Positions 9,880-22,339 of a stretch of DNA of 64,000 nt are shown piece by piece. The translations under genes were made by a program, and so were the position numbers. Within the stretch, counting starts at the first letter, position 1. The number at the start of each line of letters is the position of its first letter. The notes under the pieces are model-generated. The model was not told where the DNA came from. It did not search any database and saw only the letters and a program-made list of their open reading frames with translations. Location: positions 3,658,001-3,722,000 of the forward strand of contig NZ_CP035913.1 of assembly GCF_004209755.1 (NCBI RefSeq). Direction: 5' to 3'. This DNA is from Pseudoduganella lutea (GTDB lineage Bacteria; Pseudomonadota; Gammaproteobacteria; Burkholderiales; Burkholderiaceae_D).

Positions 9880-9908
9880 TTGCACAACCGTTCATCGCCG
9901 CTTATACT
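9880..9908 (+). promoter_or_regulatory. Sigma70 promoter of nadK-recN, overlapped by a LexA box
   Basis: TTGCAC at 9880-9885 and TATACT at 9903-9908 are separated by exactly 17 bp. Transcription would begin near 9915, giving a leader of about 200 nt before the nadK ATG. The -10 hexamer runs into the LexA box. Confidence 0.7.
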
Positions 9909-9924
9909 GTTTAAATATACAGTA
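9905..9924. promoter_or_regulatory. LexA box (SOS operator) upstream of nadK-recN
   Basis: TACTGTTTAAATATACAGTA contains the LexA core CTGT-N8-ACAG with an AT-rich centre and matching outer TA/TA, very close to the Escherichia coli consensus. It overlaps the -10 element and the start point, so LexA binding would block RNA polymerase. recN is a classical SOS gene, which supports the assignment. Confidence 0.85.
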
Positions 9925-19163: not shown

Positions 19164-19216
19164 TGGGGACGGACCCTGTTTTCCAGGAAATTTCTTGGAA
19201 AACAGGGTCCGTCCCT
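19164..19216. repeat. Long hairpin repeat (unit 1) after can
   Basis: An inverted repeat of about 26 bp per arm with few mismatches: GGGACGGACCCTGTTTTCCA on the left and its complement on the right, around a short AGGAAATTTCTT centre. It is followed by ATTTTTG, so it can also terminate can. The same TTTTCCAGGAAATTTC core occurs at 48390-48441. Confidence 0.8.
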
Positions 19217-19369: not shown

Positions 19370-19389
19370 TACTGTATATCTGTACAGTT
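19370..19389. promoter_or_regulatory. LexA box (SOS operator) at the start of the radical SAM-UdgX operon
   Basis: TACTGTATATCTGTACAGTT contains CTGT-N8-ACAG with an AT-rich centre. It overlaps a TATACT -10 hexamer at 19368-19373, the same geometry as at nadK-recN, and ends 11 bp before the ATG at 19401. The -35 region (around 19345-19350) is weak, so the promoter itself is less certain than the operator. Confidence 0.85.
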
Positions 19390-19400
19390 GGGTGCCAATG

Positions 19401-20630
19401 ATGGAGCTGAACGACAAGCTGGAAATCCTCGCCGATGCGGCGAAATACGATGCCTCCTGCGCCAGCAGCGGTGCGCCGAAGCGTTCGTCCGAGGGCAAGG
19501 ATGGGCTGGGCGCCACCAATGGCATGGGCATCTGCCACAGCTATACGCCGGATGGCCGTTGCGTCTCGCTGCTGAAGATCCTGCTGACGAATTTCTGCGT
19601 CTACGATTGCCAGTATTGCGTCAACCGCCGCACGTCGAACGTGCCGCGGGCCCGTTTCACCGTGCAGGAAGTGGTGAAGCTCACCGTCGATTTTTACCTG
19701 CGTAACTACATCGATGGCCTGTTCCTCAGTTCGGGCATCATCCAGTCCGCCGACTACACGATGGAGCAGCTGGTCGCCGTGGCGCGCGAATTGCGCGAGG
19801 TGCACCAGTTCCGCGGCTACATCCATTTAAAAACGATTCCCGATGCCGACCCGGCCCTGATCGAAGCGGCCGGCCGCTATGCCGACCGCCTTTCCGTCAA
19901 CATCGAATTGCCCACGCAGGACAGCGTGCAAAGGCTGGCGCCGGAAAAGAACGTCCACACGATCAAGCTGGCGATGGGCAATATCCGCCTGAAGCTGGAC
20001 GAGAAGGAAAACGAGCCGAAGGCACCGAAGTTCGCGCCGGCCGGCCAGAGCACGCAGATGATCGTGGGCGCCGATGCCAGCGACGATGCGCGCATCCTCA
20101 CCACGGCCGAAACGCTGTACGGCAGCTACAAGCTCAAGCGCGTCTACTACAGCGCGTTCAGTCCGATTCCCGAAAGCCCGAAGAGCGTGCCGCTGGCACC
20201 GCCGCCGCTGCTGCGCGAGCATCGGCTGTACCAGGCCGACTTCCTGTTGCGCAGCTATGGCTTCCAGGCGAAGGAACTGTTGCCGGATTCCGGCAACCTG
20301 CCACTCGACATCGACCCGAAGCTGGCCTGGGCACTGACCCATCGCGAGCATTTTCCGATGGACCTGAACCGCGCCGAGCCCCAGATGATCGCGCGCATTC
20401 CGGGCATCGGCATCCGCAACGCGCAGCGCATCGTCGAGTTGCGCCGCATGCGGCAGGTGCGGTGGGCCGATCTCGCGCGCCTGCGTTGCAGCATGAAGAA
20501 GGTGGCGCCGTTCATCGTCACCGCCGACTACCGCCCGGCGCAGGACACCACGCCATCGGACACACTGCGCAAAGCCATGGCCGACGTGCCGCAGCAGATG
20601 GCGCTGTTCCCCGAGCTGCAGGCGGCATGA
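19401..20630 (+). CDS. Putative DNA modification/repair radical SAM protein linked to UdgX
   Basis: A 409-residue radical SAM enzyme. The cluster-binding motif C-x3-C-x2-C is at residues 66, 70 and 73 ('NFCVYDCQYCVNRR'). The N-terminal 'EILADAAKYDASCASSG' is characteristic of the family annotated as UDG-linked radical SAM proteins. Near residue 333 is a helix-hairpin-helix, 'IPGIGIRNAQRIVELRR', which usually binds DNA backbone. The reaction is not known; a repair or base-modification role is inferred from the HhH, the SOS box and the UdgX partner. Start: ATG at 19401 fits homologue starts; ATG 19398 and GTG 19392 are alternatives. Its stop overlaps the next start by ATGA. Confidence 0.85.
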   Translation: MELNDKLEILADAAKYDASCASSGAPKRSSEGKDGLGATNGMGICHSYTPDGRCVSLLKILLTNFCVYDCQYCVNRRTSNVPRARFTVQEVVKLTVDFYLRNYIDGLFLSSGIIQSADYTMEQLVAVARELREVHQFRGYIHLKTIPDADPALIEAAGRYADRLSVNIELPTQDSVQRLAPEKNVHTIKLAMGNIRLKLDEKENEPKAPKFAPAGQSTQMIVGADASDDARILTTAETLYGSYKLKRVYYSAFSPIPESPKSVPLAPPPLLREHRLYQADFLLRSYGFQAKELLPDSGNLPLDIDPKLAWALTHREHFPMDLNRAEPQMIARIPGIGIRNAQRIVELRRMRQVRWADLARLRCSMKKVAPFIVTADYRPAQDTTPSDTLRKAMADVPQQMALFPELQAA

Positions 20631-22339
20631 CGAACCAGCGGGACGTGGGGGCGCAGGTACTGTCCGGCCAGCCCGTGGTGGTCACGTCGTTCGGCGAGTG
20701 GCGGGCCGCCGCGCGGGATCTGATCGTGCGCCGCATCCCGCCCGAATACGTACAATGGGTCATGCAGGATGGCGGCGGAGACCTGCTGAGTGCAATGCCT
20801 CCAACGGCTGTAGGTGAGCTGGTGAATGACTCGGGAAGCAAGGTAGTAAAGGAAGTTGAAGTAGCAAGTGCAGTTGAAGTAGCAAGTGCAGTTGAAGTTG
20901 AAGTTGAAGTTGAAGTTGAAGTTGAAGCAGCAAGTGCAGTTGAAGTAGCAAGTGAAGCAGGAAGCAAGGCAGTAACCGAGTCAGCAAGTGAAACAGCAAG
21001 TAAGTTGGCCAGTGAGGAAACTCATAACCCCGATGAGCGATCGGACCCGCCGCCCTCGAATTTCCAGCCAGGCGCGCAGCCGCGTATCTCCCGCAAGCTG
21101 ATGGAGATGCTGCAAGGCGCCGCCTGCTATCGCGCCCACGACCGCTGGGCCTTTCTGTACCGCGTGCTGTGGCGCTGGCACAGTGGCGAACACGACGTCA
21201 TCTCGATGGCCGACGTCGATGGCACCCGCCTGCACCACATGGTTCGCGCGGCGCGGCACGAGGAACACGACATGCATGCCTACCTGCGCTTTCGCGAGCG
21301 CCCCGAGGAAGCGGGCGCGCCCCGTTTCGTTGCCTGGTTTGAACCTGCGCATGATGTGCTGCCGCAGGTTGCCCAGCATTTCGCAAAACGCATGGGCAAG
21401 ACAAGCTGGATGATCGCCACGCCCGAAGCCACCGTGCTGTGGGACGGCGCCAGGCTGCATACCGGCGAAGCGCTGGCGCGCAGCGCGGCGGACTTCGACG
21501 ATGCCGGCGAATCGTTGTGGCTCACCTACTATCGCAGCATCTTCAATCCCGCTCGCCTGAATGCGGACATCATGCACGGCCATATCCGCCAGCGGTTCTG
21601 GAAGAACCTGCCCGAAGCGGCGGTGGTGCCGCACATGGTCACGCAGGCCGCGGCCGGCGCGCGCAAGGTGGGGCAGCTCGATACCGTCGGCAAGCGTGGC
21701 GGCACCACCATTCCAATTTCTTCCGAAAAGGCGGCGCCCGAGCGCCAGCAACCGAGTTCGCTCGACGAGTGCCGCCGCTGCGACCTGTGGCAGAACGCCA
21801 CGCAGGCCGTGGCGGGGCAGGGCGCCCGCCGCGCGAAGATCATGCTGGTGGGCGAACAGCCGGGCGACCAGGAAGACCTGGCCGGCAAACCATTCGTGGG
21901 CCCGGCCGGCGACCTGCTCGACAAGGCGATGGATGAAGCGGCACTCGACCGCCGCACGGTGTATGTGACCAACGCCGTCAAGCACTTCAAATGGGAACCG
22001 CGCGGCAAGCGCCGCCTGCACAAGACGCCCGCGCAAAAGGAAGTGATGGCCTGCCGCTACTGGCTCGAAACGGAACTGGAAACCGTGGCGCCCGATGTTC
22101 TCGTGGCACTCGGGAGCACGGCGCTGAAATCGATCCTGCAGACCGGCAGCGTGACGATGAAGGACTACATGGGCGCGCCGTTCGAGCATGAAGGGCGCTG
22201 GGTCGTGGTCACGTATCACCCCGCCTACGCGCTGCGGGTGCCCGACCGCGAGTCGCGCCAGGCGGCGTTCGCGGCGATCGTCGAGGCATTGAAAACGGCG
22301 CAGCAACTGGCCAGCGGCGGCACCGCGCCAGGCTTGTAA
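20627..22339 (+). CDS. DUF4130 (radical SAM-linked) domain fused to a UdgX-type uracil-DNA glycosylase
   Basis: A 570-residue two-domain protein. The N-terminal half resembles the DUF4130 'SAM-linked' family ('VTSFGEWRAAARDLIVRRIPPE' at the start; later 'YRVLWRWHSGEHDV' and 'YYRSIFNPARLNADIMHGHIRQRFWKNLPEAA'). The C-terminal 180 residues are a family-4-like UDG with 'GEQPGDQED' at 409-417, 'KRRLH' at 461-465 and 'YHPAYALR' with His531. KRRxH is the UdgX signature, in which the His covalently traps the abasic site after uracil removal. A low-complexity insert at about residues 70-131 interrupts the N-terminal domain. The start overlaps the upstream stop (ATGA), so the two are translationally coupled and share the SOS operator. 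Confidence 0.88.
   Translation: MTNQRDVGAQVLSGQPVVVTSFGEWRAAARDLIVRRIPPEYVQWVMQDGGGDLLSAMPPTAVGELVNDSGSKVVKEVEVASAVEVASAVEVEVEVEVEVEAASAVEVASEAGSKAVTESASETASKLASEETHNPDERSDPPPSNFQPGAQPRISRKLMEMLQGAACYRAHDRWAFLYRVLWRWHSGEHDVISMADVDGTRLHHMVRAARHEEHDMHAYLRFRERPEEAGAPRFVAWFEPAHDVLPQVAQHFAKRMGKTSWMIATPEATVLWDGARLHTGEALARSAADFDDAGESLWLTYYRSIFNPARLNADIMHGHIRQRFWKNLPEAAVVPHMVTQAAAGARKVGQLDTVGKRGGTTIPISSEKAAPERQQPSSLDECRRCDLWQNATQAVAGQGARRAKIMLVGEQPGDQEDLAGKPFVGPAGDLLDKAMDEAALDRRTVYVTNAVKHFKWEPRGKRRLHKTPAQKEVMACRYWLETELETVAPDVLVALGSTALKSILQTGSVTMKDYMGAPFEHEGRWVVVTYHPAYALRVPDRESRQAAFAAIVEALKTAQQLASGGTAPGL
20831..21010. repeat. In-frame simple repeats inside the UdgX fusion gene
   Basis: Six perfect copies of GTTGAA at 20891-20926 are flanked by repeats of the 18-bp unit GTTGAAGTAGCAAGTGCA and by degenerate AGCAAGT copies. 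They encode a Val-Glu/Ala-Ser tract. All units are multiples of three, so length variation stays in frame. The base composition is visibly less GC-rich than the surrounding gene. Confidence 0.9.

Follow-up and report, generated by a model that had tools for sequence, protein, structure and literature searches.

In 2013, DUF4130 was predicted to be a mutagenesis-related enzyme and was placed in association with SplB-like radical S-adenosylmethionine (radical-SAM) proteins and uracil-DNA glycosylases (UDGs) (PMC3765255), and in 2021 LexA control was predicted for a COG1573-COG4277 operon in Bacteroidetes, with earlier reports cited for Verrucomicrobia and Alphaproteobacteria (PMC8565304). UdgX is reported to capture the abasic site covalently (PMC10359453). 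The names of three NCBIfam families already state the linkage among such genes: rSAM_link_UDG (TIGR03916), SAM_7_link_chp (TIGR03915), and UDG_fam_dom (TIGR03914). Here, we analyze an operon of this type from Pseudoduganella lutea, which lies in a stretch of 64,000 nucleotides (contig NZ_CP035913.1, positions 3,658,001 to 3,722,000 of the forward strand; hereafter the window) and in which a gene for a radical-SAM/helix-hairpin-helix (HhH) protein, whose family we take to be COG4277, is followed by a gene for a DUF4130-UdgX fusion.

The operon is widespread, already on record, and functionally uncharacterized, and the window holds a further member. A first reading made from the letters alone (the sequence-only reading) had named it the window's best candidate for a new repair system, a claim that gives way to the association and the predicted SOS control that passages of PMC3765255 and PMC8565304 already contain. 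Our own contribution lies in the two-component core, in the observation that UdgX is independent of it, and in a candidate alternative operator in Xanthomonadaceae, with novelty limited to the literature searched. In that literature, we found no paper joining UdgX with radical SAM or with DUF4130; search words for the operon were not found in the text of PMC12700426 or PMC3978071, and a LexA table in PMC9380542 includes a radical-SAM gene whose family was not checked.

We give about an even chance to the reading in which LexA represses this operon, its function is DNA repair, and its core is a two-component system made up of the radical-SAM/HhH enzyme and DUF4130. The direct support in the sequence consists of the LexA-type operator and the pairing of the two genes, and all of the chemistry considered below is what we infer from them and from the protein families.

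The predicted operator, CTGTATATCTGTACAG, has the form CTGT-N8-ACAG and ends 10 nt ahead of the radical-SAM ATG at 19398; the sequence-only reading had seen a near-perfect box there and put it 11 bp before that ATG. It agrees at 14 of 16 positions with CTGTATATATATACAG, which we take to be the LexA box consensus, and it stands joint fourth to sixth among the 46 sites that the loose pattern CTGTN8ACAG has in the 7.5-Mb genome. As sole proof of a box, the loose pattern was rejected: the 46 genome sites compare with 37 for a reversed-pattern control, which is near chance, and the two sites in the window (0.57 expected) are equaled in 10 of 100 shuffles. The three genome sites with a higher score, 15, stand before genes for a FAN1 nuclease and a PA0069-family radical-SAM protein and before parE, and LexA-type boxes are also found before lexA (two boxes) and imuA, so named from neighbors read at 17 of the 46 sites, in 15 stretches, several of them without a nameable gene. 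These boxes lie in L016, L018, L021, L022, and L029, and the lexA gene is itself well identified (TIGR00498, 233 bits versus a cut-off of 110.95). A second short imuA-like frame was noted by eye at L019, and the window has a second exact LexA-type box, CTGTTTAAATATACAG (9907-9922), before a NAD-kinase-like gene (nadK by eye) and recN.

The support that we regard as decisive for a putative LexA operator at this operon is comparative and comes from relatives. We took the 80 loci that scored highest among at least 591 relatives, a non-random sample of mostly Alphaproteobacteria, and scanned each for four LexA-type operators described in the literature, beginning 150 nt before the radical-SAM match and ending 24 nt into it. 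An exact box lies upstream of the radical-SAM gene in 62 of the 80, compared with 45 of 3950 windows of the same length placed elsewhere in 79 of these loci, and three more loci carry the palindrome GTCTCA-N5-TGAGAC, a type added after the data had been seen. A further set of 30 loci, to which that of the window belongs, has an exact box at a distance of up to 300 nt in 28 cases. The alphaproteobacterial operator type is also given in PMC12700426.

The second line of support is the pairing with DUF4130. In a survey of 299 Pseudomonadota genomes, with curated cut-offs and lists compared by hand, the radical-SAM family exceeded its cut-off in 53 genomes, DUF4130 in 56, and UdgX in 52, and every one of the 53 radical-SAM-positive genomes also carries DUF4130 (Fisher values are uncorrected for phylogeny). 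DUF4130 lies within 1.2 kb downstream in 77 of the 80 loci, and the other three stop at contig ends. Absence of co-occurrence in other genomes, which the sequence-only reading had listed as refuting it, is not what we see: the co-occurrence is very strong, and LexA-type boxes are found across genomes. Two further markers were set aside: FAN1, present in 15 of the 53 operon genomes versus 23 of the 246 others, is confounded by phylogeny and is not taken as support, and the ImuA profile was not used because it is seemingly tuned to one class (44 of the 299 genomes score above its cut-off, none of them labeled outside the window's class). At L132 (6231-7426), L082, L105, L106, and L120, the DUF4130 core begins 0.5 to 1.2 kb beyond the radical-SAM gene, a larger gap that possibly holds an extra gene or an N-terminal extension.

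UdgX follows the pair less closely. The UdgX part of the window's second gene scores 253 bits against TIGR03914 (cut-off 189.95) and has both the GEQPG and the KRRLH motif, so that the fusion recognized from the sequence is borne out; its closest solved structures by sequence include 6ajo, 6iod, 8iie, and 6ail. Among the 53 genomes with radical SAM and DUF4130, UdgX exceeds its cut-off in 40 and is missing from 13, and 12 of the 299 genomes have UdgX and no radical-SAM gene. Caulobacter vibrioides (C. crescentus) gave matches to all three families, that to DUF4130 lying above its cut-off. UdgX is present in 60 of the 80 loci, mostly fused; some of the 20 loci lacking it are short contigs, and seven Pseudomonas loci with DUF4130 (L070-L075 and L077) are complete and have no UdgX. 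The conserved SOS unit predicted from these genomes is radical SAM plus DUF4130, and UdgX, which a number of lineages do without while keeping that pair, is a detachable, accessory module.

These counts bear directly on the model put forward in the sequence-only reading, in which the radical-SAM enzyme acts on the covalent UdgX-DNA product, processing or resolving it, or on a lesion marked by UdgX. Such a role would suit the 38 of 40 pair-bearing UdgX genomes in which UdgX and DUF4130 share one open frame, and also an alignment of the window's UdgX with 42 of 67 non-redundant domains, where GEQPG and the cross-linking histidine are kept in 43 of 43 (the residues preceding the histidine vary, K[R/K]RxH fitting 34 of the 43). 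It is at odds, however, with the 13 UdgX-less genomes, with the seven Pseudomonas loci, and with the existence of standalone UdgX. To these, we can add the distribution of LexA boxes in 15 stretches, a small sample, around UdgX or DUF4130 genes with no radical-SAM gene beside them, each scanned from 350 nt before the open frame to the domain. Of the standalone udgX loci, the 10 that have no DUF4130 remnant (L168-L177; three hold second udgX copies in operon-bearing genomes) all lack a published-type LexA box, and the GTTC repeat at one of them, L174, has another spacing and lies within the coding region. GTTC-N7-GTTC precedes the DUF4130 genes of L178 and L179, whose genomes have no radical-SAM match (two of the three DUF4130 genomes of this kind; G200 is the third), and GAAC-N7-GAAC is kept at L165, where a DUF4130 remnant is fused to UdgX. 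Given boxes at these three loci and none at the 10 standalone udgX loci, SOS control would thus travel with radical SAM/DUF4130 rather than with UdgX, as far as this small sample goes, which speaks against a radical-SAM enzyme that exists to process the UdgX adduct. We regard that model as very unlikely.

The palindrome GTCTCA-N5-TGAGAC looks like a candidate DNA-damage operator in its own right. It stands before the operon in Xanthomonas, Stenotrophomonas, and Pseudoxanthomonas loci (L082, L090, and L095) and in genome G094, whose family we take to be Xanthomonadaceae because it shares the palindrome with those three. Of 25 genomes of that family, 14 carry the palindrome, at 28 sites in total, and the reversed control has no match in any of the 25. 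The sites, which lie in L147-L164 and L180-L189, precede genes for a DEXH helicase (9 sites), the radical-SAM protein (6), recA (2), uvrA (1), dnaB (1), DUF763 (1), and others (8); the query proteins came from the same loci, such that the single uvrA, dnaB, and DUF763 sites are each a query identifying itself, and the helicase is TIGR03817-like, although its partial sequence scores less than the curated cut-off. No paper on a xanthomonad operator of this kind was found by title or abstract, and full texts were not searched for the motif.

That DNA-damage-type operators of at least three sequence types occur at this operon argues for a damage response, and against the reading that the operon serves to modify nucleic acid or nucleotides (as DNA modification or in the nucleotide pool) for regulation or tolerance instead of repairing lesions. 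NCBIfam does label TIGR03916 "putative DNA modification/repair," in keeping with such a role, which we nonetheless hold to be highly doubtful.

The first protein carries the marks of a radical-SAM enzyme. It matches TIGR03916 at 554.9 bits (cut-off 343.5) over model positions 1-401 of 415, and the cysteine triad of the cluster, read from the sequence and upheld here as C67xxxC71xxC74, is the same in all 74 proteins that we aligned. Beyond the cluster, C21, C46, C55, and H47 are equally invariant (74 of 74) and possibly make up a second site that may bind metal. The predicted model (predicted local distance difference test [pLDDT] score of 87.9) matches the radical-SAM enzyme type of fold, with HydE, lipoyl synthase, pyruvate formate-lyase (PFL)-activating enzyme, and biotin synthase among its Foldseek matches, and the poor prediction of residues 47-54 might be expected of a metal-holding loop. 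For the putative HhH motif seen earlier, PGxG is invariant across the 74 proteins and the profile matches to ComEA and RuvA are weak (E values of 0.019 to 0.045); in Pfam, HHH_3 (22.3 bits) and HHH_5 (21.4 bits) fall under the gathering score of 27. The C-terminal HhH probably binds DNA.

A PA0069-family radical-SAM gene, of a family that we presume to be kin to SplB, occurs in 51 of the 53 operon genomes versus 60 of the 246 others (uncorrected for phylogeny), a link that may reflect either nested dependency or shared ecology. An operon enzyme that directly reverses a UV or crosslink pyrimidine lesion, in the manner of spore photoproduct lyase (SPL), would be in line with this co-presence, with a radical-SAM protein in a DNA context, and with the grouping of the system with SplB-like proteins in PMC3765255. 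The near-universal presence of a PA0069 gene beside the operon instead suggests a different substrate, subject to the same confounding by phylogeny; moreover, hhalign against the PA0069 protein of the window's own genome, one sequence standing for the family, aligns only 15 columns, those of the cluster loop, at a probability of 2%, and there is no SPL structure among the 50 listed of 1172 Foldseek matches. We consider direct reversal of this kind quite unlikely. Strong kinship with SplB is likewise unsupported in this comparison, which was made with the PA0069 protein and with no true SplB.

DUF4130 is identified with confidence in the second gene (TIGR03915, 178.8 bits versus a cut-off of 112.25; PF13566, 113.3 bits versus 27), and in 78 sequences H214, R221, E239, R255, W298, Y301, R310, W325, and E330 are invariant. 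The predicted model has a pLDDT score of 88, a sequence search found no PDB relative at E values up to 1, and DHH-type phosphoesterases and RecJ recur among the sub-threshold fold matches, a weak lead that we do not claim. An in-frame repeat of 6-, 18-, and 24-bp tandem units lies just before the core, and the spacing at this point varies among other loci. At L178 and L179, the DUF4130 match ends at 164-165 of 181 positions of our model and at 227-229 of 243 positions of TIGR03915; the conserved C-terminal segment appears to be lost there, as though DUF4130 degenerates in genomes that lack its radical-SAM partner.

In the main rival, the radical-SAM protein serves as a maturase or activase for DUF4130, which it would modify (for example, through a post-translational crosslink or radical), and it is DUF4130 that acts on DNA. 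The near-obligate pairing, the shortened DUF4130 match in the two genomes lacking radical SAM that were read, the invariant W and Y residues of DUF4130, and the PFL-activating enzyme, HydE, and lipoyl synthase among the Foldseek matches would all be compatible with maturation; those fold matches, however, are generic to the superfamily, and an invariant HhH on the radical-SAM protein itself would be needless for a pure protein maturase. We judge this rival unlikely.

Returning to the reading of a LexA-repressed repair operon, DNA damage would lead to cleavage of LexA and release of the operon, and both proteins would be made in step. The HhH tail would carry the radical-SAM enzyme to DNA, where, in obligate partnership with DUF4130, its 5'-deoxyadenosyl radical would attack a damaged or adducted nucleotide. 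UdgX, where fused, would excise uracil at or near the site, stay covalently bound, and cap the abasic site pending repair or recombination. That radical SAM and DUF4130 form an SOS-induced repair enzyme of undescribed DNA radical chemistry, with UdgX serving in many lineages as its own covalent abasic-site cap, is a possibility that we put forward tentatively; as the sequence-only reading had it, the chemistry is indeed undescribed in the literature searched.

Several observations count against a repair operon with this core. The 80 loci were chosen by score and not at random; 15 of them have a one-mismatch box at best, a level that 20% of shuffles match, and L166 and L167, two UdgX loci with short DUF4130 remnants, have no box. 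A promoter scan of the + strand found no sigma-70-like promoter. Pairing has its exceptions in the 3 of 299 genomes with DUF4130 and no radical-SAM match and in G229 and G241, where about 3 kb separate the radical-SAM gene from DUF4130, and the frequency of UdgX suggests more than a casual role for it. The HhH, as noted, scores under the Pfam gathering threshold. The fold of DUF4130 has no PDB or viral match at an E value of ≤0.001 (the best overall is 0.068), and because there is no confident fold match, DUF4130 may be catalytic itself, may act as a scaffold, or may be what the radical-SAM protein uses as its substrate. The substrate of the system is itself inferred throughout. Overall, the original observation is confirmed, and its interpretation is partly supported.

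If the tentative scheme is true, the suicide chemistry of UdgX makes sense as the holding step of a radical-SAM/DUF4130 pathway. The question is in any case narrowed to radical SAM plus DUF4130 as the SOS unit, with UdgX as an optional fused part, and the pair can therefore be tested with and without UdgX, natural UdgX-less hosts being available. Should the pair act on DNA, it would represent a widespread radical-SAM repair activity with a structurally unsolved partner protein.

The features of the operon are collected in Table 1. The two genes are coupled, as reported from the sequence, by an ATGA (20627-20630) in which the start of the second lies inside the stop of the first. The inverted repeat on the upstream side is likely a terminator that ends the preceding unit and isolates the operon; one 18-mer arm has no other exact copy in the genome, and the region has six terminator-like sites versus 3.0 in shuffles.

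Table 1. Coordinates of operon features and of the upstream inverted repeat, in window positions
Feature	Position	Strand	Basis or remark
LexA box CTGTATATCTGTACAG (predicted)	19372-19387	.	Pattern scan and comparative support
Radical-SAM/helix-hairpin-helix protein, 410 aa	19398-20630	+	TIGR03916, COG4277-type
DUF4130-UdgX fusion, 570 aa	20627-22339	+	ATGA overlap with first gene
N-terminal region with invariant C21, C46, C55, and H47	19458-19562	+	74/74 aligned proteins
CxxxCxxC radical-SAM motif (C67, C71, C74)	19596-19619	+	Motif and alignment
C-terminal helix-hairpin-helix, ComEA/RuvA-like	20361-20450	+	Weak profile matches, invariant PGxG
In-frame simple-sequence repeat	20852-20954	+	Codes for Val/Glu/Ala/Ser-rich insertion before DUF4130 core
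DUF4130 (PF13566) core	21140-21616	+	Profile match, alignment, and model
UdgX domain (GEQPG motif A, KRRLH loop)	21722-22297	+	Profile and alignment
KRRLH loop with cross-linking histidine H465	22007-22021	+	Sequence and alignment
Inverted repeat with T-rich tail, 3' of preceding gene	19167-19214	+	20-pair stem

Two other associations were considered and are unsupported. For a phage origin, 10 phage-collection records matched and four were opened, of which three are unannotated fecal scaffolds. The fourth, a 240-kb record labeled as an Acinetobacter phage (L143, CAKLQH020000003.1), has glyQ/glyS and an aidB-named gene along with the radical-SAM/DUF4130 pair, and because of these genes it looks like a bacterial chromosome. 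The viral_contigs set gave 2 loci. For an anti-phage defense system, there was no PADLOC match.

Set against the closest known systems, the operon passes all three curated cut-offs of the TIGR03916/TIGR03915/TIGR03914 cassette and is distinguished by the long low-complexity insertion before the DUF4130 core. With the COG1573-COG4277 SOS operon of PMC8565304, it shares a two-gene operon of a UDG and a second gene under predicted LexA control, but the window's box is of the beta/gamma type, and DUF4130 is not named in the PMC8565304 passages. The GEQPG motif and the K-R-R-x-H loop are common to the window's UdgX and that of Mycobacterium smegmatis (PMC10359453, PMC10776899), whereas the window's UdgX is fused behind DUF4130, joined to a radical-SAM gene, and has HPAYALR where motif B reads HPS. 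Finally, SPL and the PA0069 family resemble the window protein in their radical-SAM superfamily and DNA context, and the PA0069 gene of the same genome also follows a LexA-type box, but the window protein differs from both in its HhH tail and its three extra invariant cysteines.

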